A stretch of 64,000 bases of DNA from Actinomycetota bacterium (GTDB taxonomy: Bacteria; Actinomycetota; Actinomycetes; Mycobacteriales; HKI-0501): NCBI GenBank assembly GCA_030840805.1, contig JAVEDU010000075.1, positions 62,001 to 126,000 of the forward strand. The letters are read 5' to 3'. The notes beneath the pieces are model-generated. The model saw only the letters and a list, made by a program, of their open reading frames with translations. It was not told the origin of the DNA and made no database searches. A program made the position numbers and the translations under genes. This document shows positions 13,447 through 37,494 of the stretch, piece after piece. The first letter of the stretch is position 1, and each line of letters starts with the position of its first letter.

Positions 13447-13601
13447 GGTGAACTCCTCGGGACGCCGGGCTCCGTGCCGCCTACCCGTGCAGGACGGCGA
13501 CTGCGGGTCGTACGGAAGAGGGCCCGCGCGGCCGCGTTGATACAAGACCAGAACACTCGCGGCGATCCGGGGGGTCAACACGTCCCACGACGGAGGCAGC
13601 G

Positions 13602-16628: not shown

Positions 16629-17216
16629 ATGGGCAGCGACGCTCCGGTCGCGGTCCTCGTCGCTCGTGCCCGTGCGGGCGAACAGACCGCCTGGGATGCG
16701 CTGATCGATCGGTACGGGCCCACCGTCCTCGCGGTGTGCCGTCGCTACCGGATGTCGGAGGCCGACGCCGCCGATGTCCGGCAGACCGTGTGGCTGACCC
16801 TGCTCGAGAAGCTGCCACAACTGCGGGAACCCGAGGCGCTGCCCGGCTGGCTGGTCACGACCACCCGCCGGGAATGCCTGCGGGTCCTGCAGCTCGGGCG
16901 TCGCGGCATCTCGCTGTCCGACCGGGACGTGCCGGACCTGTCCGAGGACGCCGATGTCGACCGGGAGTTGCTCCGGGCGGAGCGCCATGCGGCACTGCGA
17001 GCTGCCTTCGCCGAGCTCCCCTCGCGGTGCCGGCAACTGCTGCGGATGGTGATGAGCAGCCCGCCGATGCCGTACGAGGAGATCAGCCGGACACTGGGCA
17101 TACCGGTGGGGAGCATCGGGCCCACGCGTGCGCGCTGCCTGAGCAAGCTCCGCGAGTTCCCCATCCTGGCCACGCTGGTCGTGGACGACGCCGACGTCCA
17201 GGACGGACGCGGGTGA
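16629..17216 (+). CDS. ECF-like sigma-70 family sigma factor
   Basis: A 195-residue sigma factor starting MGSDAPVAVLVARARAGEQ. GAGGGGG sits just upstream of the ATG, and a GTG six bases earlier is an alternative. Region 2 spans about residues 8-85 (AWDALIDRYGPTVLAVCRRY, VRQTVWLTLLEKLPQLREPE, GWLVTTTRRECLRVLQ). Region 4 spans about 120-175 (ELPSRCRQLLRMVMS, YEEISRTLGIPVGSIGPTRARCLSKLR). It is 276 bases downstream of the CHAT gene and 15 bases upstream of a small gene that may encode its regulator. It is the complete version of the truncated sigma at 11105-11377. It probably directs transcription of a local or stress regulon. Confidence 0.93.
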   Translation: MGSDAPVAVLVARARAGEQTAWDALIDRYGPTVLAVCRRYRMSEADAADVRQTVWLTLLEKLPQLREPEALPGWLVTTTRRECLRVLQLGRRGISLSDRDVPDLSEDADVDRELLRAERHAALRAAFAELPSRCRQLLRMVMSSPPMPYEEISRTLGIPVGSIGPTRARCLSKLREFPILATLVVDDADVQDGRG

Positions 17217-18030: not shown

Positions 18031-18430
18031 GGCCACCGGTCTCGCTGTCCCGCACCAGCACGGCCGCCATCGGGCACAGCTCGGCGGCGGCCAGCACGTG
18101 CTCGTCCCCCGGCGGGACGTCGGTCACCACCGGGACCGACCGGTCGTCGACCCGCCGGAAGTGCCCCGGCGCGGTGGTGAGGCACATCCCCGCCCCGACG
18201 CACGCGGGTGACACCGCGAGCAGCGGCACCACGCGGGGCAGCTCCTCCACCGCGGTCGGCACGAGGGCGGCGTCCGTGGGCGGCCGCGCGGACAGGTCCC
18301 GGCGGGACCGCAGCAGGTAGCGGACGCCGGGGATCATGCTCAAGGAGGTCTCGTGTCCGGCCATGAGGATTCCCATGCCGGTCCGGGCGAGCTCCCGATC
18401 GGCCAACCGCACCGGGCGCCGGATACCGGG
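18031..18430 (-). pseudogene. Collapsed cytochrome P450 - ferredoxin remnant
   Basis: On the minus strand one frame encodes a P450 I-helix segment (LADRELARTGMGILMAGHETS), a middle segment and the K-helix start (ALVPTAVEELPRVVPL). It then switches directly into a 3Fe-4S ferredoxin (SPACVGAGMCLTTAPGHF, later AAAELCPMAAV). All the P450 C-terminus, including the haem-binding Cys loop, is missing, and no P450 N-terminus is present upstream. The ferredoxin frame has no nearby stop and runs on into unrelated sequence. This looks like an ancestral P450-ferredoxin gene pair reduced by an internal deletion. The rest of the 17688-18533 gap holds no gene that I can see. Confidence 0.75.
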
Positions 18431-18533
18431 ACCCGCCCGTCCCGCCGGGTGTTGGATGCGCGTCACTTCGCTGGGGCGGCGCCGTACCGCCTGCTACACC
18501 CGGGAGCCACAGGGTGTGCGAGGGGAGCTCGGC

Positions 18534-20942: not shown

Positions 20943-22585
20943 CCCGGCCGGCGGGCACCACCACCGGCCAGCTCGGCTTCACGCCTCAGCAGGCCACCCG
21001 CTGGCTGAACCCCCGGCAGCTCTTCCGCACGGCGGTCGCGGTCCTCCTCGCCGACATCTTCGGGGCGTACGCCGACAAGCGGGAGCTCCAGCAGTGCGGC
21101 GTCTTCACCCAGGCCGTCTTCGGGCACGGCGGCGACGAGCTGTGGCTGGACTACGTCAGCGACCTCGGCGACGGGTTCGACGCCACCTACTCGGTGGCCT
21201 CGCTCGTCGCTCAGGACGAGCTGACCGTCGACGGCGCGACCCCGGCACTCCCCCGTGGCGACGTGCTCGTCCTGGGCGGCGACGAGGTCTATCCCGTGGC
21301 CGACGCGTTCGCGTACGAGGCGCGGACCACCCGGGTCTACGCGGCGGCGTTGCCGGAGACGCCGGGTCCGCGACCGGTGCTGTACGCGCTACCCGGCAAC
21401 CACGACTGGTACGACGGCCTCACCGCGTTCCTGCGGGTCTTCGCGCAGGGGGAGGCCATCGGTGGCTGGGACACGGCGCAGCGGCGGTCCTACTTCGGGC
21501 TGCGCCTGCCGAGACGATGGTGGCTGCTGGCCGTGGACATCCAGCTCGACACCTACATCGACGGGCCGCAGCTGGCGTACTTCCGCGGCGTCGCCGGGGA
21601 GATCCGGCCCGGTGACGGCGTCATCCTGTGCACGGCGAAGCCGTCCTGGTACCCCCGCGCGCACGGCGACGGGAACTCCCTCGCCCGGCTGGAGTACTTC
21701 GCCCGGAAGGTCCTCGCCGGTACGGGTGCCCACCTGCGGCTGGTGCTGACCGGAGACTCGCACCACTACGCCCGGTACACCGCGGAGGGCAGCGGGCAGA
21801 CGCTGCTCACCAGCGGGCTCGGCGGGGCGTACACCTCGGCGACCCACCATCTCGACGAGAGCCTGACGCTGTCGCCGCGACTCGACCGTCCCGGCGACAG
21901 GGGCACGGAACCGGTCACCTACCGCCTCGCGCCGAAGACGTGGCCGCCGCGCGAGCGGTCGCGCCGGATGGCGCTGGACGTGGTCGTGCTGCCGTTCCGC
22001 AATCGCGGGTTCTGGGCACTCCTGGGCGCCGTACAGGCGGTGTTCATGACCGCCCTCCTCACCTCCGGTCTGTTGTGGACGGCATCCGTCGCGCTCGTCA
22101 TGGTCCTGGCCGCGGTGGGCTTCGCGGCCCCCACCCGCGGGGGCATCCTCCCGAGGCTCCGGCTCGGGGTGCCGCACGGTCTGGCACACCCGCTGCTCGG
22201 CGGTGCGGCGGGCGCCGCCTGTGCCGCGGCCGGCCCGGGGTGGCCGGTGGGGATCGCGGTCGCCGTGGCCACGCCGGTCGTGGGGCTCCTGTCCGCCGAG
22301 GTGGTCGCGGCCTACCTCTGGTTCGCGAGCCGACGACGGGCGCACGTCAACGAGCTGTTCGCGGCCCAGTCGAGGGAGGACTACAAGGGCTTCGTGCGGA
22401 TGCACATCGGTCCGGAGGGAGTGCGGGTGTACCCGATCGGGCTGCGCCGCGTGGCCGACCGCTGGTCGGCGCGGCCGGACGGGGCGCCGGGGGACCCGTG
22501 GCTGGAGCCGGCCGAGCCGCTCCGGCCGGAGCTCATCGAGGAGCCGTTCCTGGTGACCCGGGAGCCCGCTCCGCCTCCGCCCTAG
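20939..22585 (+). CDS. Membrane-associated metallophosphoesterase
   Basis: A 548-residue protein starting at GTG 20939-20941, overlapping the GMC stop in GTGA. Metallophosphoesterase motifs are LVLGGDEVYP, ALPGNHDWYDG and LTGDSHHYARY, within about residues 60-290. From about 360 to 465 there are several hydrophobic segments (FWALLGAVQAVFMTALLTSG, ASVALVMVLAAVGFAA, then two more), so the enzyme domain is tied to the membrane. The C-terminal 80 residues are again soluble. The coupled start suggests that it works with the GMC enzyme, perhaps on a phospholipid or polyprenyl phosphate. Confidence 0.85.
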   Translation: MTRPAGTTTGQLGFTPQQATRWLNPRQLFRTAVAVLLADIFGAYADKRELQQCGVFTQAVFGHGGDELWLDYVSDLGDGFDATYSVASLVAQDELTVDGATPALPRGDVLVLGGDEVYPVADAFAYEARTTRVYAAALPETPGPRPVLYALPGNHDWYDGLTAFLRVFAQGEAIGGWDTAQRRSYFGLRLPRRWWLLAVDIQLDTYIDGPQLAYFRGVAGEIRPGDGVILCTAKPSWYPRAHGDGNSLARLEYFARKVLAGTGAHLRLVLTGDSHHYARYTAEGSGQTLLTSGLGGAYTSATHHLDESLTLSPRLDRPGDRGTEPVTYRLAPKTWPPRERSRRMALDVVVLPFRNRGFWALLGAVQAVFMTALLTSGLLWTASVALVMVLAAVGFAAPTRGGILPRLRLGVPHGLAHPLLGGAAGAACAAAGPGWPVGIAVAVATPVVGLLSAEVVAAYLWFASRRRAHVNELFAAQSREDYKGFVRMHIGPEGVRVYPIGLRRVADRWSARPDGAPGDPWLEPAEPLRPELIEEPFLVTREPAPPPP

Positions 22586-24153
22586 CCGGCGGCCTCCGCT
22601 CGGGGGGTGCGGGGCAGCGAGGCGAGGGCGCCGTGCGCGGCCCGCACGCCCGCCTCGGGCACGGCCGCGGCGACATGTCCGTCCGGCCGGATCAGGACGA
22701 GGGCGTCCCCGCGCACCCCGTAGCTGCGATGGACCGCGCCCTCGAGGTCCGCGAGGGCTCCGGCACCGGCGCCCGGCAGCCTGCCCAGCAGCTGGGCCGA
22801 CACGCCCCTCGCCGATGCCAGCGCGAGGACCGGCCCAGTGCGGTCGGGCTCCGTCGCGAAGACCAGCAGGGTGTGCCCGCCGTGCCGGAACAGCTCGTGG
22901 ACGCGGACGCAGTTCCCGGATGCCGCGACGAGGGCGCCGTCCGGGGCACGGCGTCCCGGCCGCACGAGCCCCGCCGCCCGCGGCCGGGCGACGATCGCGC
23001 TCCGCGGATACGCCACGTCGAGCTGGGTGGCGCGGGCGGCGAGCCGCCGCACCAGACCGGTACGCGCCAGGGCCCGGATGGCGAACACCCGCGCCCGGTC
23101 CGCGCCGGGGGCGCGGACCAGACCGAGACGCGAGACGACATCGGTGCCCCGGACCACGGCGCGCGCCACCGGCAGGCGCTCGGCCTCGTAGGTATCCAGC
23201 AGTGCGTCCGCCGCCGCTCCCCCGGCCACGAGATCGAGCTTCCAGCCGAGATTGACGGCGTCCTGGATGCCGGTGTTCATTCCCTGCCCCCCGACCGGGC
23301 TGTGCAGATGAGCCGCGTCGCCGGCGATGAGCACCCGGCCGCGCCGGTAGGCCGTCGCCACCCGGTTGGTGATCCGGTACGGGCTGACCCAGTCCACCGT
23401 CCGGACCCGGACGGCGGAGACACCACGGCGGTCCAGCCCCCGCTGCAACCACTCGACGCCGGGATCGCCCGTCAGGGGTCCCGGCATGTCGACGGTGAGC
23501 CGGCACGTACCGCCGGGAAGGGCGACGAACACCACGACCCCGTGCGGTGAGAGGAAGAAGTGGCCCTGGTCCGCCGGTAGCTCGGTGTCGGCGCGGACCT
23601 CGGCCAGCACGAAGGTCTGCGGGTAGCGGTCGCCGGCGAAGCCGATCCCCGCCTCGTGCCGGACGACGCTGTGCGCGCCGTCGCAGCCGACCAGCCACCG
23701 GCTGTGGAGCTCCTCGGTGCCCGCGGAACCCTCGACCGTGGCGACCACCCCGTCCCGGTGCTGGCGCACCGACACCACCCGTCGTCCCCGCTCCGGATGT
23801 CCCCCCAGCTCGGCCAGCCGGGCCAGCAGCAACCGCTCGGTCTCCCGCTGCGGGAGCACCAGCGGGAACGGGAACCGGGTGGCGACGCCCGGATCGGGCC
23901 GCAGCCGGGTCAGCAGCTCACCGCCGGCGTAGCAGCACACCGCGTCGATCGGGCGCCCCCGCCGCACCGCGCCGTCCGCGACCTGGATCAGGTCCAGGAC
24001 CTCGAGCGTCCGCGGCGAGACCACGGTCGCCTTCGACGTCTCGGACGGTTCCGGGGCGGACTCCACCAGCCGACACGACCGGCCGCGCCGCGACAGCTCG
24101 CACGCGAGCGTCAGCCCGGTCGGTCCGGCACCCACGATCACCACGTCGTCCAC
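22582..24153 (-). CDS. FAD-dependent aromatic-type monooxygenase
   Basis: A 523-residue class A flavoprotein monooxygenase starting MDDVVIVGAGPTGLTLACEL. It has the dinucleotide GAGPTG motif, the middle WLVGCDGAHSVVRHEAGI (DG motif) and the GRVLIAGDAAHLHSPVGGQG (GD motif) with the following MNTGIQDAVNLGWKL helix. The C-terminal 140 residues are a thioredoxin-like domain, as in phenol hydroxylase and polyketide hydroxylases. It is convergent with the phosphoesterase gene and divergent from the alpha/beta hydrolase gene, interrupting an otherwise same-strand cluster. Its substrate is unknown; it may belong to the same lipid or aromatic pathway or be an insertion into it. Confidence 0.92.
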   Translation of the reverse strand: MDDVVIVGAGPTGLTLACELSRRGRSCRLVESAPEPSETSKATVVSPRTLEVLDLIQVADGAVRRGRPIDAVCCYAGGELLTRLRPDPGVATRFPFPLVLPQRETERLLLARLAELGGHPERGRRVVSVRQHRDGVVATVEGSAGTEELHSRWLVGCDGAHSVVRHEAGIGFAGDRYPQTFVLAEVRADTELPADQGHFFLSPHGVVVFVALPGGTCRLTVDMPGPLTGDPGVEWLQRGLDRRGVSAVRVRTVDWVSPYRITNRVATAYRRGRVLIAGDAAHLHSPVGGQGMNTGIQDAVNLGWKLDLVAGGAAADALLDTYEAERLPVARAVVRGTDVVSRLGLVRAPGADRARVFAIRALARTGLVRRLAARATQLDVAYPRSAIVARPRAAGLVRPGRRAPDGALVAASGNCVRVHELFRHGGHTLLVFATEPDRTGPVLALASARGVSAQLLGRLPGAGAGALADLEGAVHRSYGVRGDALVLIRPDGHVAAAVPEAGVRAAHGALASLPRTPRAEAAG

Positions 24154-24333
24154 GGCTGCTCCTCCGGCCCATCCGGCCGGCCACCCAGGCTCCTCGGCCG
24201 TCCGCGGCGGGACAAGGACACGCCCGCCTTCCGTCGGCTATCCGCCTCACCTCTTGTGTCGCCGCACGTCGTACGCCCCACTCGTACCCATGATCGCCGC
24301 CGTGCCGCTCCTGCTCCGGTCCTGGGGGGAACC

Positions 24334-25383
24334 ATGTCCAGCGTCGTGACCACCGACCGTGTCGTGCCGTTCGATGCCGACGACGGGATGCCGCTCAACC
24401 TCGTCCACGTCCGGGGCGAACACGCCCCGACCCGCTGTCCGGTCCTGCTCGTGCACGGGGCCGGCGTGCGCGGCAACATCTTCCGTGCGCCCGTCCACAC
24501 CACCGTGGTCGACGCCCTGGTCGACGCGGGGTACGACGTCTGGCTGGAGAACTGGCGGGCCAGCATCGACGTTCCGCCGAACGACTGGACGCTGGACCAG
24601 GCGGCGCTGTACGACCATCCGGCCGCCGTGCGGACGGTGCTGGCCGAGACCGGCGCCGACCGGATCAAGGCGGTCATCCACTGCCAGGGGTCGACCTCGT
24701 TCATGATGTCGGCCTGCGCGGGTCTGGTGCCCCAGGTGGAGACGATCGTCGCCAACGCGGTCACCCTGCACCCCGTCGTACCGCGCTGGTCCCGGGCGAA
24801 GCTGCGGTACGCGGTCCCGCTGGTGAACCGGTTCGTGCACGCCCTGGACCCGGCGTGGGGCGACCGTCCGCCGGCGGAGCTCCTGCCGCGGCTGCTGACG
24901 ACCCTCGTGAAGTCGGTGCACCGCGAGTGCGACAACGGTGTCTGCAAGATGGTCAGCTTCACCTACGGGAGCGGGTCTCCCGCGTTGTGGCGGCACGAGA
25001 ACGTGGACGCCGCGACCCACGACACCTTCATCCCGGCGGAGTTCGGGCGGGTTCCGCTGACCTTCTTCCGGCAGATGGCACGGTGTGTGGCGCGCGGCCA
25101 TCTGGTGTCGTACGAGGACCTGCCGGGGCTGCCCCGCGACTACACCGCGCAGGAGCCGCAGACCGACGCGCGGTTCGCCTTCGTCGCCGGAGAGCGGAAC
25201 CTCTGCTTCCTGCCGGCGAGCCAGATCCGGACGTTCGAGTTCCTGTCGCGGTTCCGGCCGGGTCACCACGCGCTGCACGTGCTCCCCGGGTACAGCCATC
25301 TCGACGTCTTCCTGGGCCGACACGCCGGGCGTGACGTCTTTCCGTTGATCCTCCGCGAACTCGACCATCGCGTGCGCACCTGA
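24334..25383 (+). CDS. Alpha/beta hydrolase with Cys at the nucleophile position
   Basis: A 349-residue alpha/beta hydrolase starting MSSVVTTDRVVPFDADDGM. The oxyanion segment VLLVHGAGVRGNIFRAP lies near residues 37-53. The nucleophile elbow reads AVIHCQGSTSFMMSA, so residue 117 in the Ser position is Cys. The acid is not certain, and a late His is in GYSHLDVFLG. Hydrolases of this type accompany, or are fused to, large cholesterol-oxidase-like GMC enzymes, which fits the GMC gene at 18534. The start has GGGGGGAACC upstream. A Cys nucleophile suggests an acyl-transfer or lactone-type reaction, or loss of ordinary esterase activity. Confidence 0.85.
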   Translation: MSSVVTTDRVVPFDADDGMPLNLVHVRGEHAPTRCPVLLVHGAGVRGNIFRAPVHTTVVDALVDAGYDVWLENWRASIDVPPNDWTLDQAALYDHPAAVRTVLAETGADRIKAVIHCQGSTSFMMSACAGLVPQVETIVANAVTLHPVVPRWSRAKLRYAVPLVNRFVHALDPAWGDRPPAELLPRLLTTLVKSVHRECDNGVCKMVSFTYGSGSPALWRHENVDAATHDTFIPAEFGRVPLTFFRQMARCVARGHLVSYEDLPGLPRDYTAQEPQTDARFAFVAGERNLCFLPASQIRTFEFLSRFRPGHHALHVLPGYSHLDVFLGRHAGRDVFPLILRELDHRVRT

Positions 25384-25417
25384 CCGTCTGGTCGGCGACA
25401 CCAGTCAGGAGGAAACC

Positions 25418-26302
25418 ATGTTCACCTCGCGCAGGGCGCGCCGGATCGCCGGACGTTACGCCAACGTGGACGGCATCCCGTTCCGGATGCCGGTCGGCAC
25501 CGACGGCAGCCCGGCCCTCCTGGCGGCGTTCGGCATCGATGCCGAACGCGCGCGAGCGGTCCTGCCCACCGGCGAGCTCGAGCCGCTGCGCCTCGGCGGC
25601 CGCGGCCTCCTGGTCATCGCCGTCGTCCACTACCTCGACACGACGATCGGCCGGTACGTCGAGTTCTGCCTCGGCATCGCGTGCACCCGGCGGGGCGGGC
25701 CGCCGCTGTCCGGCCTCGGCGTGTACATCTACGACCTCCCGGTGAGCACCGAGATCTCGGTCAAGGGCGGGCTGGGCATCTGGGGAATGCCCAAGCGCCG
25801 GGCGAGCCTGGACTTCCTCGTCGGGGAGTCGACGGTGAGCAGCCAGTACGACCTGGACGGGGAGCTGGTCGCGCGGGTGGACATCCCGCGGCCCGCGCGG
25901 ACGATCCTGCCGATGCGGGTCAGCGGCGTCGGCTACGGCGACTTCCGCGGTCAGCTGACCAAGTCCCACATCCACCTGCGCGGTCGTGCCGGCGTCACGC
26001 CGGGCGGGACCGGTGCACGGCTCCTCCTGGGCGACCACGCCCGGGCCAGGCCGCTCACGCTCCTCGACATCGACCCCAGCCCCAGGTTCACGGCCTTCCT
26101 GCCCGCGATGGCAGGGGTGCTCGACGACCACGTCGAGACGTGGTTCCTGACCGCGGAGGAGCCGCCGCCCCCGCCGCCGGTGGGCCTGCGTGACGTGGTC
26201 GGCCTCGGACTCGGCCAGGAGTGGCTCGAACCGCCCGACCGTGACCGCAGCGACCGCCTGATCGAACAGCTCAGCCCCCGTCAAGGACCAAGGAGCCGGT
26301 GA
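25418..26302 (+). CDS. Acetoacetate decarboxylase-like (ADC fold) protein
   Basis: A 294-residue protein starting MFTSRRARRIAGRYANVDG behind AGGAGG. The ADC fold is suggested by YLDTTIGRYVEFCLGIACT, an EISVKGGLGIWGMPKRRASL segment with conserved-looking Lys residues, and the later ILPMRVSGVGYGDFRG. Family members are either decarboxylases with a Schiff-base Lys or related lyases and hydratases. The proline tract EEPPPPPPVG near residue 250 links to a short C-terminal helix. The stop overlaps the GTG of the patatin-like gene, so the two are coupled. The substrate is unknown. Confidence 0.85.
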   Translation: MFTSRRARRIAGRYANVDGIPFRMPVGTDGSPALLAAFGIDAERARAVLPTGELEPLRLGGRGLLVIAVVHYLDTTIGRYVEFCLGIACTRRGGPPLSGLGVYIYDLPVSTEISVKGGLGIWGMPKRRASLDFLVGESTVSSQYDLDGELVARVDIPRPARTILPMRVSGVGYGDFRGQLTKSHIHLRGRAGVTPGGTGARLLLGDHARARPLTLLDIDPSPRFTAFLPAMAGVLDDHVETWFLTAEEPPPPPPVGLRDVVGLGLGQEWLEPPDRDRSDRLIEQLSPRQGPRSR

Positions 26303-27261
26303 TTCCCGTGAAGCGATCTCTGGTACTGGCAGGAGGCGGAGCCAAGATCGGCTGGGCCTCGGGTGCCCTGCAGGTGCTGATGGAGGACGGCGGACTGACG
26401 TTCGACCACATCGACGCGACCAGTGGCTCCGTCTTCAACCTCGGGATGCTGCTGTCCGGTCGCTCGCCGGCCCAGATCGCGGCCGCGTGGGCCGATCTCT
26501 CCCCGTGGGAGTTCGTGTCGTTCCATCCGCTGCGGCGGTACGTCACGTTCTGGCGGCTTCCCTCGCTGCTGACGCAGGACGCGGCGGTGAGACGGATCCT
26601 GCCGAAGTGGGGGATCGACGTGGCCAAGATCCGCGGCTGCACGCACGTCAACGGCCATCCGGTGACGGCGACGTTCAACGTGCTGGACTTCGGGGCCAAG
26701 CGGATCAAGACGATCCCGCACACCGAGATGGACCTCGAGTATCTCCTCGCGGTGGACGCGGTGCCCGGCGTGGTGCCGCCGATCGCGAAGGACGGCACGC
26801 TCTACACCGACGCGATGCTCCTCAAGGACGCCAACCTCGGCGAGGCCGTACGGCAGGGCGCCGACGAGATCTGGGTGATCTGGACGGTCGAGGACCGGGC
26901 CGTGTGGCGGGGCGGATTCTGGAACCACTTCGGCCACATCTTCGAGACCTGCGCCGTCGGCAACCTCAAGCGGGAACTGGACGCCATCGAGGACGTCAAC
27001 CGGCGGGTCGCCGACGGCACGGCCGAACCGGGACGTCGGCACGTCACGGTGCGGCTGCTCAGCCCCGAGCGCCCGGTGCCGGTGGACTACCTGTTCTTCC
27101 GGAACAAGAAGCAGATGGCACCGACCATCGAGGCGGGGCGCGCCGACGCGCGGAGGTACCTTGCCCGGATCGGTCACCTCCCCGGTGGCGGTGCGCACGA
27201 CCGCGCTGCCGGGAACGGTGCGGCGGGCGAGGCCCCCCGTTCCGCGGTCTGGGGGCGGTGA
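26299..27261 (+). CDS. Patatin-like protein with an altered nucleophile motif
   Basis: A 320-residue protein starting at GTG 26299-26301 (GTGA overlap with the ADC-like stop); GTG 26308 is an alternative. The patatin opening is KRSLVLAGGGAKIGWASGAL. The nucleophile elbow reads IDATSGSVFNLGML, so Ser42 is kept but both flanking glycines of G-x-S-x-G are Ala and Ser. The expected catalytic Asp may be the one in LYTDAMLLKDANL. Patatins hydrolyse acyl chains from lipids. Here it would supply free fatty acid to the adjacent alpha-dioxygenase-like protein, if active. The stop overlaps a GTG of that next gene. Confidence 0.88.
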   Translation: MIPVKRSLVLAGGGAKIGWASGALQVLMEDGGLTFDHIDATSGSVFNLGMLLSGRSPAQIAAAWADLSPWEFVSFHPLRRYVTFWRLPSLLTQDAAVRRILPKWGIDVAKIRGCTHVNGHPVTATFNVLDFGAKRIKTIPHTEMDLEYLLAVDAVPGVVPPIAKDGTLYTDAMLLKDANLGEAVRQGADEIWVIWTVEDRAVWRGGFWNHFGHIFETCAVGNLKRELDAIEDVNRRVADGTAEPGRRHVTVRLLSPERPVPVDYLFFRNKKQMAPTIEAGRADARRYLARIGHLPGGGAHDRAAGNGAAGEAPRSAVWGR

Positions 27262-27266
27262 CCGCC

Positions 27267-29594
27267 ATGGGCCGGCACATCTCCCGCGGTACGTACGCCC
27301 GGTACGCCCTCGGCGGGGTGCGCCTGGCGATGGGGTCGACCGCGCTGCTGGCACCGCGGGTGATGGTGCGCAGCCTCGGGGTACGCCCGGAGGACCAGCC
27401 GGCGGCCTGCTACGCCCTGCGGCTCTTCGGCGTCCGTACCGTGGTGCTGGCCGGTGAACTGCTCGTGGCCGGGAAGGCACAGCGGGCCCATGCCGTCCGG
27501 CTGGCCCCGTGGATCCACGCCTCGGACACGGTGGCGGCCCTCGCGGCGGCCCGTCGGGGTGAGCTGCCGCGCCGGGCGGCGCTCACCGCCGCGTCCGTCT
27601 CCGGCCTCAACACCGCGTTCGCGGTCGTGGCGCTGCTCGACTCCTCCGCGGGCCCACCGGGAGCCGGCGCCCGTCCCGCCGCGGACGGGCCGGGGCACCC
27701 GGCCTGGCGACGGGCGGTGCTGCACGGTGTCCACGCCGCACCGTGGGTGTGCGTGCTGCTGCGCGGGACGGAGCGGCCGGCCGCCGGTGCCGCCTCCCGG
27801 CGGACCGTCTTCTGGCGGCGATACGACCGGGCGGCGGAGTACGTGGACCGCCGGATCGGCTGGGACCGGCTGCCCGTGCCGCTGGGCCTCGCCGTACTCA
27901 CCGGGGTCCGCGACATCCTCCGCCGGGAGAACCTGTACGACTCGGGCACGATCCCGAGCCTCGCTCCGCCACGGGCCCCCTCGCCGGCGGACCGGACCGT
28001 CCGCTCCCCCGACGGTTCCCACAACGACCTCGAACATCCCACGATGGGGATGGCCGGTACCCGGTTCGGGCGCAACGTCCCGCTCTCCGCGGCCCGGCCG
28101 GAGTCGCCGGCCGAGGTGCTGACGCCGAATCCGCGGGTCGTGAGCCGGAGCCTGATGACCCGGCACCACTTCCAGCCCGCGTCGACGCTGAACGTCCTGG
28201 CCGCGTCGTGGCTGCAGTTCATGATCCGCGACTGGTTCAGCCACGGCCAGGGACCGGCCGAGAACCCGTGGCACCTCCCGCTCGCGGCGGACGACGACTG
28301 GCCCGAGCCGCCGCTGGAGGTCCCCCGGCTCCCGGCGGACCCCACCCGCCCGGCCGGCCTCGACGACCGGCCGCCGACCGCGGTGAACACCAACTCGCAC
28401 TGGTGGGACGCGTCGTCGATCTACGGGAACAGCGTCGAGGAGCAGCGCGCGGTGCGCTGCGGCACGGACGGCAAGCTGCACGTGCTGACCACCGGGGTCC
28501 GGCCCGTGGTGAAGGCCGACGGTCGCGACCCGGTCCACGAGCCGGGATTCTGGCTGGGTCTCGCGATGATGCACGACCTCTTCACCCGCGAGCACAACGC
28601 GATCTGCGACCGCCTCAGGGACGCAGACCCGCGGCGGAGCGACGAGGAGCTGTTCCAACGGGCGCGCCTGATCAACGCGGCACTGCTCGCGAAGATCCAC
28701 ACGGTGGAGTGGACACCGGCCGTCATCAGCCACCCGACGACCGTGGTCGGGCTGCGGGCGAACTGGTGGGGCCTGGAGGGCGAGCGCCTGCAGAAGATGT
28801 TCGGCCGCCTCAGCGGCAGCGAGGCCCTCAGCGGTATCCCGGGGTCGGAGACCGACCATTTCGGTGTGCCGTTCTCGATCACCGAGGAGTTCGCGGGCGT
28901 CTACCGGATGCACCCGCTGATCCCGGACGACTTCGACCTGCGGGCGGCGGCGGACGACGCGTCGCTGCGCTCGTGCACGCTGCGGGACCTCGCCGGCCCC
29001 GGCGCGCTCGAGGTGCTCGCGGCGGTGGACATGCCGGACCTGTTCTACTCGTTCGGGACCGAGCATCCGGGCGCGATCGTGCTGGACAACTTCCCGCGCT
29101 TCCTCCAGGAGTTCCGGCGGCCCGACGGCAAGCTCGCGGATCTGGCCGCGACGGACATCCTGCGCTCCCGGGAACTGGGGGTCCCCCGCTACAACCGGTT
29201 CCGGCGCCTGCTGCACCTGGCGCCCGCCCCGACCTTCGAGTCCCTCACCGACGATCCCGACCTCGTGGCGCGGCTGCGGGACGTCTACGAGGGCGACATC
29301 GAGAAGGTCGATCTCACCGTCGGCATGTTCGCGGAGAAGCGGCCGGACGGGTTCGCCTTCAGCGACACCGCCTTCCGCATCTTCATCCTGATGGCGTCCC
29401 GTCGGCTGAACAGCGACCGGTTCTTCACCCGGGACTACACCCCCGAGATCTACACCCCGGAGGGGCTGGCCTGGATCGGTGACAACACGATGATCTCCGT
29501 GCTGCTGCGGCACCACCCGTCGCTCCGGCCGGCCCTGCGGGGTGCCGGGAACGCCTTCGCACCCTGGCGCCGATCGGGTCCGCGAGGCGGGTGA
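27267..29594 (+). CDS. Alpha-dioxygenase/cyclooxygenase-like haem protein with N-terminal membrane region
   Basis: A 775-residue protein from ATG 27267; a GTG at 27258, overlapping the previous stop, is equally possible. Residues 1-150 contain hydrophobic helices (RYALGGVRLAMGSTALLA, LTAASVSGLNTAFAVVALL). Residues about 240-760 are an animal-haem-peroxidase/alpha-DOX domain: HNDLEHPTMGMAGTRFGRNV, FTREHNAICDRLR and FAGVYRMHPLIPDDFD. The last block carries the catalytic Tyr546 and proximal haem His549. The distal haem His position, expected in an F-x-x-HDW motif, is Arg321 (LQFMIRDWFSHG). Spacing from 321 to 546 is close to that of plant alpha-dioxygenase. A fatty-acid oxygenase role is likely if the Arg is tolerated. 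Confidence 0.88.
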   Translation: MGRHISRGTYARYALGGVRLAMGSTALLAPRVMVRSLGVRPEDQPAACYALRLFGVRTVVLAGELLVAGKAQRAHAVRLAPWIHASDTVAALAAARRGELPRRAALTAASVSGLNTAFAVVALLDSSAGPPGAGARPAADGPGHPAWRRAVLHGVHAAPWVCVLLRGTERPAAGAASRRTVFWRRYDRAAEYVDRRIGWDRLPVPLGLAVLTGVRDILRRENLYDSGTIPSLAPPRAPSPADRTVRSPDGSHNDLEHPTMGMAGTRFGRNVPLSAARPESPAEVLTPNPRVVSRSLMTRHHFQPASTLNVLAASWLQFMIRDWFSHGQGPAENPWHLPLAADDDWPEPPLEVPRLPADPTRPAGLDDRPPTAVNTNSHWWDASSIYGNSVEEQRAVRCGTDGKLHVLTTGVRPVVKADGRDPVHEPGFWLGLAMMHDLFTREHNAICDRLRDADPRRSDEELFQRARLINAALLAKIHTVEWTPAVISHPTTVVGLRANWWGLEGERLQKMFGRLSGSEALSGIPGSETDHFGVPFSITEEFAGVYRMHPLIPDDFDLRAAADDASLRSCTLRDLAGPGALEVLAAVDMPDLFYSFGTEHPGAIVLDNFPRFLQEFRRPDGKLADLAATDILRSRELGVPRYNRFRRLLHLAPAPTFESLTDDPDLVARLRDVYEGDIEKVDLTVGMFAEKRPDGFAFSDTAFRIFILMASRRLNSDRFFTRDYTPEIYTPEGLAWIGDNTMISVLLRHHPSLRPALRGAGNAFAPWRRSGPRGG

Positions 29595-30236: not shown

Positions 30237-33200
30237 TCAGTGCACCGCGGCCTGGCCCAGCAGGGTGCCCTTCCGGGGGTGACCGTCGAAGGCCTCGGCG
30301 GGAGAGGACAGGAGCAGGTGCCGGACGTGGCGCCGGACATCGGGCGCCGAGGCCGGCGCGACGCCCCGGCCCCAGGGCTTGGCCGCGACGGCCGTCCGAT
30401 CGGCCGGGGGGCGGGCGACCGCGGCCTGCTCCCCCTGCGCCACGGGGATGTCTCGGATCCAGTCCTCCCACATCCGTCTCTCCGCGGCCGTGAACACCCT
30501 GTACATGCGCCCTCCGAAGTCGAAGGCCCCGAGGAACGGGCTCCGCTCGGGCCTGCCCGGAACGACGAGGCCGCGGTCGACGAGTTCGGTGAGCAACTGC
30601 TCCGGGTCGTCGAAGAGGTTGTTGTTCATGCCGGAGCCGGGCGCGAGCTGCCCGTGGTTGAGGCTCCCGTACCGCCCCTTCTGCGTGATCATCTGGAGCA
30701 CCCTGCGCCGGGCGTGGTCCCCCGACCTCAGCTTCTCCTTCAGGTCGTCGCCCAGTGTGCCGGTCGTCCGGAAGGCGACGTAGCCGTCCCAGATCCGCCG
30801 CCATTGCGCCTGTCGCTCGTCGTCGTCGCGGAACGTGGCCAGGTACCGCTTCACCGCGCGTTTGGCCAGTGCGCCGTGGCCCGCCTCCGCGTTGTCGATG
30901 GCGAGGTGGAGCGTGTAGTAGCCGGGGTCGATCTTGTGGCGCCGGAGCAGGCTCGCGGTCGTCGCCAGCTCGACGGACTCCCACTCCAGGTACAGCGTCA
31001 TCCCCAGGATCTCCGGAAAGAAGTCCTCGGTGAACTGGGAGACCACCAGCTCCAGGAGCGGCACCGTGAACGCCGATTCCAGGAAGGACTCGTCCGCGGC
31101 GTACTCGGCGCTGGCGATGGGCGGGGTGCGGACACCGACGCTCCCGAGGACCGCCGAGTAGATGTTGGCGTGGTTCTGCGCCGGATCACCACCGCCCACC
31201 TCGTCTATCCAGATCTGGGCGAGGTAACCGGTCAGGTCGTCGATCGGCCCGACGGTGGCCACGTTCCGCAGCCACAGACCGTCTGTCTGGTTCACCGGCG
31301 CGAACTGGCGCAGCCGTTCGACGACGTCGTCGCGGCTCTGGCAGGTCTGGTCCTCGTCCGGGTCGTACGCCGCCGCCACGTCGACCAGGTCGTCGTAGAT
31401 GCTGTCGAGCCGGGTATCGAACCTCAGCTCCTCGTAGGCGAAGGGGCGCAGCTCCGAGTCCAGGTCGGCGGCGCCCTGCGCGTCGTGGGCGGTCGCGAGG
31501 AACTGCTTCGCCAGGTCCCAGGCGACCGGGAGGAAGTCGGGGAACCGGCGGAGGTTCAGCATGATGTGGAAGTAGTCCCGGTCCCGGAGCCCGGTGTACC
31601 GGCCCCGCGCGGTCTCCACCCACACCTCGCTGCCGTCGGCCGCCTTCCGGGGCACGACGAACCCGAGCGTCGACCACTTCCGGACCATGTCGCGGTGCCG
31701 GAGGTCGGCCCTGGCCGCGGTCCCGAGTGCCGTCGAGATCTGGTCCCCGATGCCCCGGTCCCAGCGCTTCCGCGGGAACGCGGTCGCGCTGACACTCCGC
31801 GCGGCCCGTCCGTCGGCGGAGAGCCGGTCGGTCGTGACGGCGGTGAACTCGTCCTCGGCGATGACGTCGTCGGGGCGCTGTGCCGGCCACCAGAAATGCC
31901 GGCAGTCGGCGAAGTCGGCCTGCCAGGGCACGGCCATCGGCGCGGTCAGGCTGCCCGGGGCCAGGCCGGGGCGGAGCCGGAACGGCGTCGCCGGGTCCCA
32001 CTGTCCGCGCCAGCGCGTGCTCAGCTCGATGCCCGGGAAGAACGGTCCGCCGACACAGGCCTCGAGGGCGGCCCGGTCGAGCTCGCCCGGGGTGGGCCGT
32101 GGTTCCCCGTCGACCGCCGGGTTCCGGACCGCACCGGCGTCTCCGCCGAAGTTGCCCTCCGCCCACCTCTTCAGGCGGGCGTACTGCAACGGGGTGACCG
32201 TCAGCCAGGTCGTCGGTTCGCCGGGGGTGGCACGTCCCTCGTCACCGGAGAGCTGCGGCATGTAGTGGGCGGTCGCCTGGGTCCGCGCGGTCTCGGGATC
32301 GGCGAGCGGCGTTCGGACCCGGCCGAAGACCGCGCCGCGGGCCGCTGCGGCCGCTCCGTCGGCCGGGCTGCTCAGCAGGGCGTAGTTGTCGGGCTCGAAG
32401 AAGTCGCCCCGTCGCTCGACCGTGTCGTTCCTCGCGGCCCGGGTGGCGCGGTGGCCTCGCTGCGCGGTCGCGTTGACCCACTGGTACCGGGCCGCTCGTT
32501 CGAGTACGGGGCGGATGTCGCGCTCGAAGGAGACCGGATCGGGCGTGGGCAGCACGTCCCCGTCAACGGCCTCTTTCCGGAACGGCTCGTACTCGAACAC
32601 GTCGTAGAGCGTGACGAGGTTCGTGATCGACGGCGCGAAGTCCGGCGGGGCGACGACGACCCACGACGGGTGGCGCACCGGGATCTCCTCGCCGGTGTTC
32701 CTGAGCGTCACGCGGGCGTCGACCGGCCCGTCCGAGGTGTCGTCGTGCCAGCCGTCGTTGTCGGCGAAGTGCGACAGTGGCCTGTTCCGCGGCGAGCCGG
32801 AGGTGCCGTGGCCGCCGAGGACCAGGAGCCGGCCGGCCGCGTCGGTGCGCAGCTCACCGAGGTCCACCTCGTGGCCGAGGAAGGTCCCGGAGGCGAAGCC
32901 GTACGGCGTGCCCCAGACCCCGCGCCCGCGCACCCGGCGCTCGCCGGGATCGATCACCAGCGTCGCCCGCCGGGTCCCGGTCACCCGGGCGTTGCGCAGC
33001 TGTCCCGGCCGGTCGGGGTGGAACCTCGGCGCGGCGCCCTTCCCGTTCGCCAGGTGCACGGACCACTCGATCTCCGCGTCGGCGTCCGTCAGCTCCTGGA
33101 CGACGTTCCCGGCGGCGTCGAACCCGAACACCCGGAACCTCGCCGCCTGCCGTTTGACCCGCCCCCGCTCGTCCTTGTACCCCCCGGCGGGCAGACCGGC

Positions 33201-33302
33201 CCGGCCGGGGCGTTCCGGCCCCACGAAGTACTCGTCGGGGCTGTCGCCGACCCGCGCGATACCTATCCCCGGGTGGATTCCGCAGTAGACGATGTCGGTC
33301 AT
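30237..33302 (-). CDS. LodA-type CTQ oxidase fused to a haem-oxygenase-like diiron domain
   Basis: A 1021-residue fusion starting MTDIVYCGIHPGIGIARVGD. Residues 1-565 resemble LodA/GoxA amino-acid oxidases, whose cysteine-tryptophylquinone cofactor is built from one Cys and one Trp. The candidates are Cys416 in ALEACVGGPFFPGIE and Trp471 or Trp472 in CRHFWWPAQRPDD. Residues about 640-960 resemble the iron-containing, haem-oxygenase-like (HDO) family: FFPEILGMTLYLEWESVE and HLAIDNAEAGHGALAK supply Glu, Asp and His candidates for metal binding. GAGGTG lies upstream of the ATG. A LodB-like flavoprotein is encoded divergently, as expected for cofactor maturation. The diiron part could act on the oxidase product or help process a substrate. 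Confidence 0.85.
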   Translation of the reverse strand: MTDIVYCGIHPGIGIARVGDSPDEYFVGPERPGRAGLPAGGYKDERGRVKRQAARFRVFGFDAAGNVVQELTDADAEIEWSVHLANGKGAAPRFHPDRPGQLRNARVTGTRRATLVIDPGERRVRGRGVWGTPYGFASGTFLGHEVDLGELRTDAAGRLLVLGGHGTSGSPRNRPLSHFADNDGWHDDTSDGPVDARVTLRNTGEEIPVRHPSWVVVAPPDFAPSITNLVTLYDVFEYEPFRKEAVDGDVLPTPDPVSFERDIRPVLERAARYQWVNATAQRGHRATRAARNDTVERRGDFFEPDNYALLSSPADGAAAAARGAVFGRVRTPLADPETARTQATAHYMPQLSGDEGRATPGEPTTWLTVTPLQYARLKRWAEGNFGGDAGAVRNPAVDGEPRPTPGELDRAALEACVGGPFFPGIELSTRWRGQWDPATPFRLRPGLAPGSLTAPMAVPWQADFADCRHFWWPAQRPDDVIAEDEFTAVTTDRLSADGRAARSVSATAFPRKRWDRGIGDQISTALGTAARADLRHRDMVRKWSTLGFVVPRKAADGSEVWVETARGRYTGLRDRDYFHIMLNLRRFPDFLPVAWDLAKQFLATAHDAQGAADLDSELRPFAYEELRFDTRLDSIYDDLVDVAAAYDPDEDQTCQSRDDVVERLRQFAPVNQTDGLWLRNVATVGPIDDLTGYLAQIWIDEVGGGDPAQNHANIYSAVLGSVGVRTPPIASAEYAADESFLESAFTVPLLELVVSQFTEDFFPEILGMTLYLEWESVELATTASLLRRHKIDPGYYTLHLAIDNAEAGHGALAKRAVKRYLATFRDDDERQAQWRRIWDGYVAFRTTGTLGDDLKEKLRSGDHARRRVLQMITQKGRYGSLNHGQLAPGSGMNNNLFDDPEQLLTELVDRGLVVPGRPERSPFLGAFDFGGRMYRVFTAAERRMWEDWIRDIPVAQGEQAAVARPPADRTAVAAKPWGRGVAPASAPDVRRHVRHLLLSSPAEAFDGHPRKGTLLGQAAVH

Positions 33303-33409
33303 CGGTACTTCACCTCGTGACGTGTGGTGGCTGTCCAGTGTGGTGTCGGGCAACCGTGACGACAACGGGCCGGTGGGGCCACAACTGTCGGGAATCCGGG
33401 GGGACACGC

Positions 33410-34495
33410 ATGCGGGTGATCGTCCTCGGCGCCGGACCGGCCGGCGCGAGCGCGGCCGTCGCCCTGGCGGACAAGGGAGTCGACACGCTGCTGGTCGACC
33501 CCCGGCCGCACACCGGATGGCAGCTCGGCGAGGGGCTTCCGGCCGCCGCCGGAGAACACCTGCGCTCCCTCGGGGTGTGGGAGGCGTTCCGGGGCGCCGG
33601 TCACCTGCCGTGCACCCAGTTCGTGTCGTGCTGGGGTTCCGCGGAACCCGCGTACCGATCGGCCATCGTCGACGCTCACGGCCCGTCCTGGCAGGTGGAG
33701 CGTCGACGGTTCGACGAGATGCTGGTGACCGCCGCCCGGACGGCGGGGGCCGACGGGCCCGTGCCCTGGCGGCTGACCGGAATCCGGCGCGGCCCCCCAC
33801 GGTGGCTGCTGCGGTGTGTCGACGACGGCACCGTGCGGGTGGTGCCGGCCGACTTCGTGATCGACGGCACCGGTCGCCGGAGTTGCTTCGCGCGCCTGCT
33901 CGGGCTGCCACGCCGGGTGGACAGCAGCGTGGTGTGCGCCGCGGGCCTGCTCGACGATCCCGACCCGGACGACGGTTCCTCCCTCGTCGAGACGGTCGAG
34001 GACGGCTGGTGGTACGCCTCGCGGGTGCCCGGTGGCCGGTTGGTGGTGGCCAAGTTCACCGACGCCGCGATCTCGGGCCGGCAGGGTCTGCGGAGGGTGT
34101 CCGAGTGGTCGCGCCAACTGGGAAGGACCCGGCTCACCAGGGCCCGCGCGGGCTGGCCGGGCCTACGGCTGCGTGCCCCGCTCCGCATCGCGGCGGCCGG
34201 CAGCTCCGCGCTGGACTCCCCCGCCGCGGCCGGCTGGCTCGCGGTGGGTGACGCCGCGTGTGCGCACGACCCGCTCTCGTCCCGCGGCCTGCACGATGCC
34301 CTGGCGACCGGGATCGCCGGGGCGGACGCCGTCGCGCTGAGCCTCGACGGTGCGGTGGAGGCCGCCGCCCGGTACGCCGACACCGTGTCGGCGGGGTACC
34401 GGCGGTACCTGCGGGAGCTGGCCTGGTTCTACGCGGAGGAGAGACGGTTCCCGGCGGCACAGTTCTGGCGGAGCAGGGCCTCGGCGGACGGCTAG
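33410..34495 (+). CDS. LodB-like FAD-dependent oxidoreductase
   Basis: A 361-residue flavoprotein starting MRVIVLGAGPAGASAAVAL. It has the dinucleotide GAGPAG motif, a PRPHTGWQLGEGLPAAAGEH segment, a DFVIDGTGRRSCFARLLG DG-type motif and WLAVGDAACAHDPLSSRG, the FAD-binding GD motif. It belongs to the tryptophan-halogenase-like group that includes LodB, the protein needed to form the quinone cofactor of LodA. Its position, divergent and 107 bases from the LodA-like gene, supports that role. It ends convergently with the large LuxR-type regulator, their stop codons overlapping. Confidence 0.87.
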   Translation: MRVIVLGAGPAGASAAVALADKGVDTLLVDPRPHTGWQLGEGLPAAAGEHLRSLGVWEAFRGAGHLPCTQFVSCWGSAEPAYRSAIVDAHGPSWQVERRRFDEMLVTAARTAGADGPVPWRLTGIRRGPPRWLLRCVDDGTVRVVPADFVIDGTGRRSCFARLLGLPRRVDSSVVCAAGLLDDPDPDDGSSLVETVEDGWWYASRVPGGRLVVAKFTDAAISGRQGLRRVSEWSRQLGRTRLTRARAGWPGLRLRAPLRIAAAGSSALDSPAAAGWLAVGDAACAHDPLSSRGLHDALATGIAGADAVALSLDGAVEAAARYADTVSAGYRRYLRELAWFYAEERRFPAAQFWRSRASADG

Positions 34496-37494
34496 CGCCG
34501 AGGCCCGGTCCGGTCCTCGGGGACCGGCTCCCCGAGGCCCAGCCGGTGCGCGACGGCGGCCGCCTCGCCGCGGTTCTTCGCGTCGAGCTTGGTGAGGATG
34601 TTCGACACGTGCACGCTCGCCGTGCTCTCGCTGATGTAGAGCGTCCGGGCGATCTCGCGGTTCCGGCGACCCACCTTGAGCAGCCCGAGGACCTGGAGCT
34701 CCCGGTCGGTGAGCGCGAAGGGGTTGTACGGCACCGGCGCCGGTACGGCGTCGGGCACGCCCAGGTCGATGCGGGCGCGGAGGGCCAGCGCCACGATCTC
34801 CGCGCCGAGGGCCCGGGCGTCGAGGTCCCGCGTCACGGCGGCCGCCCGGCGCAGCACCTCGGCGGCCCGGACGTCCCGGGCGGTGACCAGCGCCTCCGCC
34901 TCGCGCCACCGCGCGTACGCCGCCGGGTACGGCCGCGCGAGACGCTCCCATCCGTCGGCGATGTCGGCCCACGCGCCGGACCGCGCGCCACCCGTGAACC
35001 GCGCGAACTCGGCCTCCGCCGTCGCGGCCTCCACGGCCGCCTCGGGGAAGGACACCTGGCGCGTGCCCATCCGCCGCCAGAGCGACCGTGCCCGCGCGCG
35101 CAACGCCGCGGCGTACGGCCCGCTGTCGTCGCCGGCCTCCGGTGCTCCCCGGGCGCTCCGCCGCTCCGCCTCGTCCGCCTCGACGCGCAATCCGAGGGCG
35201 CAGAGGGCCACCGCCTGCTGGTCGTCTCCCCGCGCGGCGACGATCTCCAGGCCCCGCCGAACCTCGGCGCGAGCGCTGCGGTGCTCGCCGAGCCACAGGT
35301 CCCGCGTCGCGGCGGCGCCGTGGGCGAGGCCGTGGTTCAGCGGATCGTCGTCTCCTTCGAGCATCTCCCGTGCCTGCTTGAGCCGCTGCTCGGCCTGTTC
35401 GGTGTCACCTCGGGCGGTGGCCAGCTCCGCGGACACCACGGCCGTCATGATCCCGCGGGCGGCACCGTGGCTGGCGTACAGGCGGCTCGCGATCTCCTCG
35501 GCCTCCCGCCATCGGCCGAGGCGGAAGAGCACCAGCACGATCGAGTCCAGCATGTCGATCATCGGCGTGAAGAAGACGCCCGCGTCGGCGCTCCAGCGCA
35601 GCGCCTCCTCCACCGTCGTCAGGCACTCGGCCGACCTGCCGACGAAGTCCAGCGCGAGGCTGAGGTGGTTGTAGGTGACGCTGACACCCTCCAGATCCCC
35701 CTCCGCCGCGGCGACGCGCAGCGCGTCCCGCATCCGCGCGATGCCGAGCTCGGGCTCGCCGTGCATCGCGAGATGCCATCCGGAGGTGCGCAGGCCCAGC
35801 ACCTCCTCCCGGCGGCAGCCGGCATCGCGCGCCAGGGCGAGGGTCTCGTCCCAGAACGGCGCCGAGTCGGCGTACCGGCCGCGGATCGACAACGCCTGTG
35901 CCAGCGATGCCGTGACCCGGGCGCGTTCCGCGATCGCGTCGCTCCCGGCGAGCAGCCGGTACGCCTCCGTGAGCGCGTCGAGGGCGCGGGCACCGTTCGC
36001 CCGGGAGAGATAGGAGCCCAGCGCCTCGTGCATGAGCGCGCGCCGGACGACGTCCTCGGAGGGCGACGCGACGAGCGCCTGCTCGACGAGCTCGACGGCC
36101 TCGTCGTCGTGATCGGCGTAGTGGGCGCACTTCGCCGCGGCGGCCAGGAGATCCGGCCGCTCGATCCCGGCCGTGCCGGGGTCGGGAACCTCGTCCCAGA
36201 GCGTGAGCGCGCGCCGGAAGTACTGGTAGCCCTCGCTGTACCCGTGGACCTCCGCGGCGGCCCGGCCCGCTGCCACCACCGCGGAGAGGGCCTTCGACGG
36301 ATCACCGGCGGCCTGCGCATGGTGCGCGATCACCGCGGTCGTCGTCGACCGCGGGCCCTCCCGCAGATGCGGTTGGTCCGAGAGGGCGGTCGCGACGAGA
36401 CCGTGCAGGGTCGCGCGTTCCCCGGGCAGGAGGTCCGAGTAGGCGGCCTCCTGGGTGAGAGCGTGCCGGAACCGGTAACCACCATCGGTGTCCGCGACGA
36501 GGAGGTGGCCGGCCACGAGCTCCCGGAGCGCGGTGAGCAGCGCCCCGTCCGGGAGGTCGGACACGGCCGCCAGCAGCGGGTGGCTCACCCGTCGCCCCAC
36601 CACGGCCGCGCGGCGCACGAGGTCCTGGGCGTCGCGGGAGAGACCCGCGATCCGGAGGAGCACCACGTCCCGGACCTGCGCCGGAACGGGACCCTGCGGG
36701 TCGATCCCCTGAGCGCTGAGCAGCTCCTCGGCGAAGAAGGCGTTGCCGCCGGACAGGTCGGCGATGCGCTCCACCGCTCCGGGCCAGAGCGGGGCGCCGG
36801 CCAGTTGCTCGAGCAGTTCGGTGAGGTCCGGCCGGTCGAAGGGCTGGAGCGAGATCCGGGTCATGAAGGTGCTGCGGAAGAGCTCGAGCAGCGCCGACGG
36901 CAGCGGGCCGTGGCTCGGCTCGTCGTCCCGGTAGGTCACCACCAGCAGGACACGTTCGGTCCGCAGCGCCACGGTCAGAAAGCCGAGGAGGTCGAGCGTC
37001 GACTGCTCGGCCCAGTGGATGTCCTCGATGACGAACACCAGAGGCGCGTCCAGTGCCAGCTTGGCGAGCAGCGCGAGGAACCTCTCGAAGAGCTGACCCT
37101 GCCGGATCCCCGACACCCGCCCGGCCGGCGTCGGGGACACGATGTCCTCGTCCTCGACGTGGAGGAGCCGATCGAGCTCCGCGTAGCCCGCGCCGAACAG
37201 CTCGTCGAGCGAACCCGCGTCCCGGTCCTGCAGAAGCCTGCGCAGCGCATCGAGAATCGGTCCGTAGGGAAGGCCCCCGGTACCCACCCGGACACAGGAT
37301 CCGAACAGGACCTGGCCGTCGCCCGCAAGAATCGGCTCGAGGCACTCGGAGATCAACCGGCTCTTGCCGACCCCTGCCTCTCCGGAGATCACGATCCCCG
37401 CGGCCTGACCGAGGCAGACCTCACTCCACGTCTCGCTGAGCTCGGCGAGCTCCGCGCGACGACCGACAAAGCGTGCGTGTCGCCTCCGCCTCAC
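34492..37494 (-). CDS. Large AAA-ATPase LuxR-family regulator (LAL type)
   Basis: A 1000-residue regulator starting at GTG 37492-37494. The N-terminal AAA module has Walker A VISGEAGVGKSRLI near residues 35-48 and Walker B VFVIEDIHWAEQS near 153-165. Residues about 350-900 are TPR-like helical repeats. The C-terminus is a LuxR helix-turn-helix: LTDRELQVLGLLKVGRRNRE and IARTLYISESTASVHVSNIL, ending near residue 985. Such proteins are ATP-dependent activators of sugar or secondary-metabolite genes. It faces the LodA/LodB pair and could regulate it, but the target is not visible. No better start further upstream was apparent. Confidence 0.93.
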   Translation of the reverse strand: MRRRRHARFVGRRAELAELSETWSEVCLGQAAGIVISGEAGVGKSRLISECLEPILAGDGQVLFGSCVRVGTGGLPYGPILDALRRLLQDRDAGSLDELFGAGYAELDRLLHVEDEDIVSPTPAGRVSGIRQGQLFERFLALLAKLALDAPLVFVIEDIHWAEQSTLDLLGFLTVALRTERVLLVVTYRDDEPSHGPLPSALLELFRSTFMTRISLQPFDRPDLTELLEQLAGAPLWPGAVERIADLSGGNAFFAEELLSAQGIDPQGPVPAQVRDVVLLRIAGLSRDAQDLVRRAAVVGRRVSHPLLAAVSDLPDGALLTALRELVAGHLLVADTDGGYRFRHALTQEAAYSDLLPGERATLHGLVATALSDQPHLREGPRSTTTAVIAHHAQAAGDPSKALSAVVAAGRAAAEVHGYSEGYQYFRRALTLWDEVPDPGTAGIERPDLLAAAAKCAHYADHDDEAVELVEQALVASPSEDVVRRALMHEALGSYLSRANGARALDALTEAYRLLAGSDAIAERARVTASLAQALSIRGRYADSAPFWDETLALARDAGCRREEVLGLRTSGWHLAMHGEPELGIARMRDALRVAAAEGDLEGVSVTYNHLSLALDFVGRSAECLTTVEEALRWSADAGVFFTPMIDMLDSIVLVLFRLGRWREAEEIASRLYASHGAARGIMTAVVSAELATARGDTEQAEQRLKQAREMLEGDDDPLNHGLAHGAAATRDLWLGEHRSARAEVRRGLEIVAARGDDQQAVALCALGLRVEADEAERRSARGAPEAGDDSGPYAAALRARARSLWRRMGTRQVSFPEAAVEAATAEAEFARFTGGARSGAWADIADGWERLARPYPAAYARWREAEALVTARDVRAAEVLRRAAAVTRDLDARALGAEIVALALRARIDLGVPDAVPAPVPYNPFALTDRELQVLGLLKVGRRNREIARTLYISESTASVHVSNILTKLDAKNRGEAAAVAHRLGLGEPVPEDRTGPRR

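Follow-up and report, generated by a model that had tools for sequence, protein, structure and literature searches.

A predicted quinone oxidase of the LodA/GoxA family joined to a haem-oxygenase-like diiron domain in an actinobacterial genome

The fusion gene and its surroundings

The window analyzed here, a stretch of 64,000 nucleotides from the genome of an Actinomycetota bacterium (Mycobacteriales), contains a gene in which a LodA-type quinone (CTQ) oxidase is joined to a haem-oxygenase-like diiron (HDO) domain, with a LodB-like partner and a regulator next to it. The features of this locus, with the basis for each, are as follows.

30240-33302, minus strand: fused LodA-HDO protein of 1021 aa (single open frame; five further fusions homologous to it)
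31611-33302, minus strand: CTQ oxidase part (LodA_N and LodA_C), residues 1 to ~564 (Pfam; Foldseek)
31887-31916, minus strand: CTQ site DFADCRHFWW, residues 463-472 (alignment to LodA and GoxA structures)
30423-31601, minus strand: haem-oxygenase-like diiron (HDO) part, residues ~568-960 (Pfam; Foldseek match to SznF)
30876-30908, minus strand: HDO helix-3 signature H799-x3-D803-x5-H809 (HLAIDNAEAGH) (alignment to SznF H311/D315/H318)
30240-30281, minus strand: C-terminal tail HPRKGTLLGQAAVH (comparison with other fusions and one standalone HDO)
33410-34495, plus strand: LodB/GoxB-type FAD maturase, 361 aa (GoxB/LodB models)
34492-37494, minus strand: LuxR/LAL-type regulator with AAA, TPR and GerE domains (Pfam; Actinoplanes loci)

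The fusion gene begins with an ATG at 33302, which is preceded by the ribosome-binding-like stretch GAGGTGAAG, and continues for 1021 codons without interruption to a stop codon at 30237-30239. The single protein of 1021 residues given in a preliminary description of this DNA is therefore borne out by one open frame, and so is its domain order, LodA-type followed by HDO-type. LodA_N (residues 10-217, E 1.3e-72), LodA_C (residues 351-478, E 4.7e-25) and Haem_oxygenas_2 (PF14518, "iron-containing redox enzyme", residues 664-832, E 1.1e-19) were all found over the curated Pfam cut-offs. The structure model of the full-length protein has medium confidence (mean pLDDT 66.9), with a low-confidence CTQ loop, and a model of the HDO part alone was too poor for use (mean pLDDT 51). 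The best Foldseek matches of the oxidase part are LodA (2ymw/3weu) and GoxA (6byw), with E values down to 2.8e-18.

The LodB partner that had been proposed is indeed present as a flavoprotein gene, which matches the NCBIfam models GoxB (E 3.1e-74) and LodB (E 1.2e-56). This gene diverges from lodA-HDO, with 107 bp between the two start codons, and is convergent with the gene of the LuxR/LAL-type regulator, which adjoins lodB in Actinoplanes as well (63% identity).

Elsewhere in the window, a run of genes at 18336-29594 encodes a GMC oxidoreductase, a phosphoesterase, an FAD monooxygenase, an α/β hydrolase, an acetoacetate-decarboxylase-like protein, a patatin and, adjoining the fusion gene, a bacterial animal-type haem peroxidase (PF03098, E 1.9e-102). 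At the lodA loci of Actinoplanes, the genes at 22582-29594 found no match, and the peroxidase/acetoacetate-decarboxylase/patatin cluster (24-29.6 kb) was rejected as a part of the system because it does not recur there. At 12262-17213, a subtilase-fold peptidase gene (minus strand) lies head to head with a gene for a TPR-CHAT protease-like protein (plus strand), followed by a sigma-70-type factor; these genes gave weak PADLOC matches (subtilase, BovA) and possibly form a stress or defence module. The genome also encodes two further PF14518 proteins outside the window, at C42:56079-56606 (L102) and C14:19875-20450 (L103), with E values of 3.9e-52 and 8e-24.

Cofactor sites of the two parts

Alignment to the LodA structures pairs Cys467 of the fusion with LodA Cys516 and Trp472 with LodA Trp581, whereas Cys416, the CTQ cysteine of the preliminary description, aligns with LodA position 442 and was ruled out by the alignment to the LodA and GoxA structures. 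From the tryptophans proposed together with it (Trp471/472), Trp472 stands as the partner of Cys467. A profile alignment to GoxA mutant structures equates Asp463 with GoxA Asp678; the corresponding residue of LodA is Asp512. With Cys467 replacing Cys416, none of the cofactor residues is missing from the fusion. Of 47 LodA-family proteins, 46 retain these three CTQ residues (Asp, Cys and Trp), the remaining row being apparently misaligned, and the quinone is predicted to form in the fusion protein.

The fusion shares with LodA and GoxA the LodA_N/LodA_C architecture, the CTQ Asp, Cys and Trp and a nearby LodB/GoxB-type flavoprotein, that is, the features of LodA/GoxA-family membership that can be read from sequence. 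In contrast to these enzymes, it has an extra HDO domain and a Cys-to-Trp offset of 5; the offset is 15 in the GoxA-type rows and, from 516 to 581, 65 in LodA. Of the 47 LodA-family rows, 11 have this short loop, fused and unfused proteins among them. The pocket position occupied by His583 in GoxA and Cys448 in LodA aligns with Phe422 in the fusion, and the Tyr766-His767 segment of GoxA is not conserved, so substrate binding is unlikely to proceed as in GoxA or LodA. The scores against the NCBIfam equivalog models (332 bits for GoxA with a cut-off of 750; 183 bits for LodA with a cut-off of 600) are likewise too low. We therefore rejected both a glycine oxidase (GoxA sensu stricto), on the score, Phe422 and the lost Tyr-His segment, and a lysine 6-oxidase (LodA sensu stricto), on the score and Phe422. 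Judging from the sequence, the substrate appears to be neither obviously glycine nor lysine.

The compact CTQ motif of the fusion (Asp463, Cys467, Trp471-Trp472) resembles that of QhpC, the gamma subunit of QHNDH (Asp33, Cys37, Trp42-Trp43), and QHNDH, whose system includes QhpG and QhpE, also has a flavoprotein partner, as the fusion has LodB (PMC7876137). However, QhpC is a small thioether-crosslinked dehydrogenase subunit, whose overall sequence is unrelated to the fusion (PMC7876137).

The HDO part showed a weak profile match to SznF (E 0.0035) and a fold match in Foldseek (E 4.2e-5), the latter obtained with the model of mean pLDDT 66.9. Together with the PF14518 match over the cut-off, this medium-confidence fold match supports the helical bundle of the HDO superfamily. 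Fusion residues E701, H711, E773, H799, D803 and H809 align with SznF E215, H225, E281, H311, D315 and H318, which we take to be the metal-ligand residues of SznF (names checked against the chain numbering, offset 17). By sequence position alone, the three His and three carboxylate ligands of the HDO superfamily on core helices 1-3 are all in place, and 26 of 27 relatives keep the six positions, together with D674 and E764. The motif DNAEAGHG, noted previously in the C-terminal part, was found at residues 803-810. In contrast to SznF (H-x3-D-x2-H), the fusion has H-x3-D-x5-H, lacks a cupin domain and is joined to LodA. This helix-3 spacing, three residues longer before the last His, is a feature of the whole branch including DtpC, an HDO protein from Acinetobacter baumannii. 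The domain is predicted to bind two metals. From its sequence, the whole protein is a putative oxidase of amines or amino acids that depends on CTQ, belongs to the LodA/GoxA family and has a metal-competent HDO domain covalently attached.

Related fusions and standalone HDO genes

Five further fusions in one frame were identified: three from Actinoplanes, one from a Paraburkholderia caribensis plasmid and one (L058) from the same order as the window, which was among the order relatives collected with a LodA_N family search. The Actinoplanes proteins (973-986 aa) are 57-58% identical to the window protein in tblastn, and the plasmid protein 42%. No frame change separates the two domains in any of them, and a comparison of two Actinoplanes copies gave dN/dS values of 0.29 for the LodA part and 0.26 for the HDO part, which indicates that both halves are under purifying selection between these two species. 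Since five other genomes or plasmids carry the fusion in one frame, it is not an artefact, and with selection on both halves a frame or sequencing error was ruled out. The fusion is rare: among 396 genomes sampled evenly across the phylum, where few candidates were scored per genome and some fusions may have been missed, a full-length match was found only in the genome of the window itself.

The LodA-HDO fusion as a kind is not new. A survey in 2015 catalogued five LodA-pfam14518 proteins and 21 LodA proteins with a catalase-fold domain (Campillo-Brocal et al. 2015, Table 3; PMC4417212). The former include A3CQDRAFT_07977 from Actinoplanes globisporus (985 aa), for which lodA and lodB are listed as inverted (PMC4417212). 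The fusions described here likewise have both domains in one protein and, in Actinoplanes, 973-986 aa with lodA and lodB in opposite orientation; the paper places pfam14518 N-terminally, whereas it is C-terminal in every fusion that we read (PMC4417212). That listing gave the extra domain without an analysis of function or residues (PMC4417212), and in the literature that our search covered there was no later work on a LodA-pfam14518 fusion. The short CTQ loop, a conserved C-terminal tail and the subtilase-type peptidase neighbours of the relatives are apparently undescribed.

The tail has the form HPxGxxxGxGxxH, or one close to it, and ends in His in fusions of both LodA subgroups and in the standalone HDO of a Mycobacterium (L002-L004, L006, L058, L059). 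Compared with HPRKGTLLGQAAVH in the window protein, it reads HPRGTLLGHGSAH in Actinoplanes, HPTGRILGMGAVH in the L058 fusion, YPRARLRGNGVAH in Paraburkholderia and HPHGRIHGSGSVH in the Mycobacterium protein.

The gene order regulator - lodB - S8 peptidase - lodA-HDO is conserved in Actinoplanes, with lodB inverted in L002-L004. A peptidase gene lies directly upstream of lodA-HDO both there (S8; L002 and L003, ~8300-9990) and in Paraburkholderia (S53; L059:10176-11900), which parallels the subtilisin-like protease QhpE of the QHNDH operon (PMC7876137). An S8 peptidase was also seen near a LodA gene in Rhizobium (L100). The S8 peptidase of the window (12262-13686) gave no tblastn match to the Actinoplanes neighbour and was rejected as its counterpart; a search of the whole genome, run without a positive control, likewise returned no match to that neighbour.

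In Mycobacterium sp. OTB74 (L006) and in an Acidimicrobiaceae MAG (L005), sister HDO genes occur unfused, and they start at the point at which the fused domain starts. No LodA_N was detectable in either genome, the MAG being possibly incomplete, which suggests that this HDO lineage needs no LodA product. The HDO tree groups the fused domains with these two sisters in a single clade (100/98) that is distinct from the DtpC clade and the tandem HDOs. The LodA tree, which has several long branches, does not unite the fused proteins in a single clade (three changes), and the HDO domain is attached to at least two LodA subgroups, the short-loop type and the type of L058, with a Cys-Trp offset of 19. 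The LodA tree suggests that LodA and HDO may have been fused repeatedly. Other actinobacterial LodA proteins (L054-L057, L037, L038) have long C-terminal extensions unrelated to HDO, and extension of the LodA module seems to be frequent.

Possible roles of the HDO domain

CTQ oxidases of this family release a carbonyl compound, ammonia and hydrogen peroxide. In the mechanism that we slightly favour, with low confidence (a probability of roughly 0.35), the HDO domain would handle the peroxide of the oxidase, which would make peroxide the link between the two halves of the fusion. The adjacent LodB-like flavoprotein would mature the quinone of the fused oxidase, whose products from R-NH2, O2 and water would be a carbonyl, ammonia and hydrogen peroxide. 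The tethered diiron domain would then consume this peroxide or use it to oxidise a second molecule, and the enzyme would carry its own peroxide-handling module, much like LodA with a fused catalase-fold domain.

We favour this reading because LodA-catalase fusions are known, DtpC limits peroxide, and peroxidase and ferritin-like genes occur near lodA (a Dyp-type peroxidase in Mycetohabitans, a ferritin-like gene in Hymenobacter and the animal-type haem peroxidase gene beside the fusion in the window). DtpC limits hydrogen peroxide in dried Acinetobacter cells, is encoded in an operon with the catalase gene katE and needs E143, H153 and H232, but gives no protection against an acute peroxide challenge (PMC13232832). 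By position, these three residues were found at the same places in locus L064. DtpC shares with the fusion PF14518, the E-x9-H and HxxxDNxxxGH signatures and a similar region after the core (PMC13232832). Unlike the fused domain, it is a standalone protein from a katE operon; it is also a distant relative (~25-30% identity over 300 residues) in a separate, strongly supported clade, which argues against the peroxide reading. DtpC-like standalone HDOs were also observed in about 10 of 300 Burkholderiales genomes (L085-L094). In these ten neighbourhoods no KatE-type catalase lies within ~5 kb of the DtpC-like gene, so the association of such HDOs with catalase is not a general one.

The preliminary description pointed instead to sequential catalysis, with an amino acid or amine oxidised and then passed to an iron oxygenase. 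In such a two-step biosynthetic enzyme, the CTQ oxidase would make an imine or aldehyde that the HDO domain oxygenates or cleaves, or the order would be the reverse. Wherever the reaction of an HDO is known, it forms or cleaves bonds in small molecules, which counts against the peroxide reading, and the characterised HDOs act mostly on amino or fatty acids (PMC13108848). This agrees with a sequential scheme, as do two active sites that look complete and a pocket that differs from those of GoxA and LodA, with a substrate neither obviously glycine nor lysine. The earlier statement that HDO proteins cleave amino-acid-like substrates holds for other HDO branches, whereas among proteins with the same ligand signature the nearest one studied by experiment is DtpC, which is connected with the limitation of peroxide (PMC13232832). 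Moreover, the sister HDOs occur in genomes without detectable LodA_N, so a general task fits them better than the use of a LodA-specific product. The trees point the same way, since the fused oxidases are not one clade and the HDO domains form one with their standalone sisters, a point weakened by the long branches. Apart from lodB and the regulator, the conserved neighbourhood of the fusion includes no dedicated biosynthetic genes. A sequential reaction is not supported by anything beyond the proximity of the two domains, and we regard it as rather unlikely.

The same standalone sisters would suit an HDO domain with a small-molecule substrate of its own, fused to the oxidase for co-expression or co-localisation and exchanging neither substrate nor peroxide with it. 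The tandem HDO relatives in unrelated clusters and the varied C-terminal extensions of LodA proteins elsewhere agree with such independence, and these unrelated extensions also make the fusion alone weak evidence for a shared reaction. However, HDO domains of one clade on at least two LodA subgroups suggest a useful link, and the constraint on both halves is similar, so independent modules seem to us unlikely. Oxidative chemistry is needed for CTQ to mature, and fungi (PMC4417212) as well as Hymenobacter have a ferritin-like gene accompanying lodA; the HDO domain might then be a metal-binding or structural appendage that turns over nothing itself (an iron store, a dimerisation element or a helper in CTQ formation). 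We regard this as improbable, given that LodA and GoxA mature with LodB or GoxB without an HDO domain and that standalone HDOs from genomes without LodA retain every ligand residue.

On the peroxide reading or the sequential one, the fusion could be the first enzyme to combine, in one chain, a protein-derived quinone and a diiron site that cooperate. Peroxide or product from the quinone site would drive the diiron site, the short-loop CTQ would be a distinct form, and the His tail at the C-terminus would act in maturation or docking; we consider this whole picture doubtful. If the two sites do not cooperate, the HDO domain would be one more of the varied appendages found on LodA oxidases. If they do, the protein would represent a single-chain pairing of a quinone oxidase with a diiron centre, and with it the dealings of DtpC-like HDOs with peroxide could be addressed directly.
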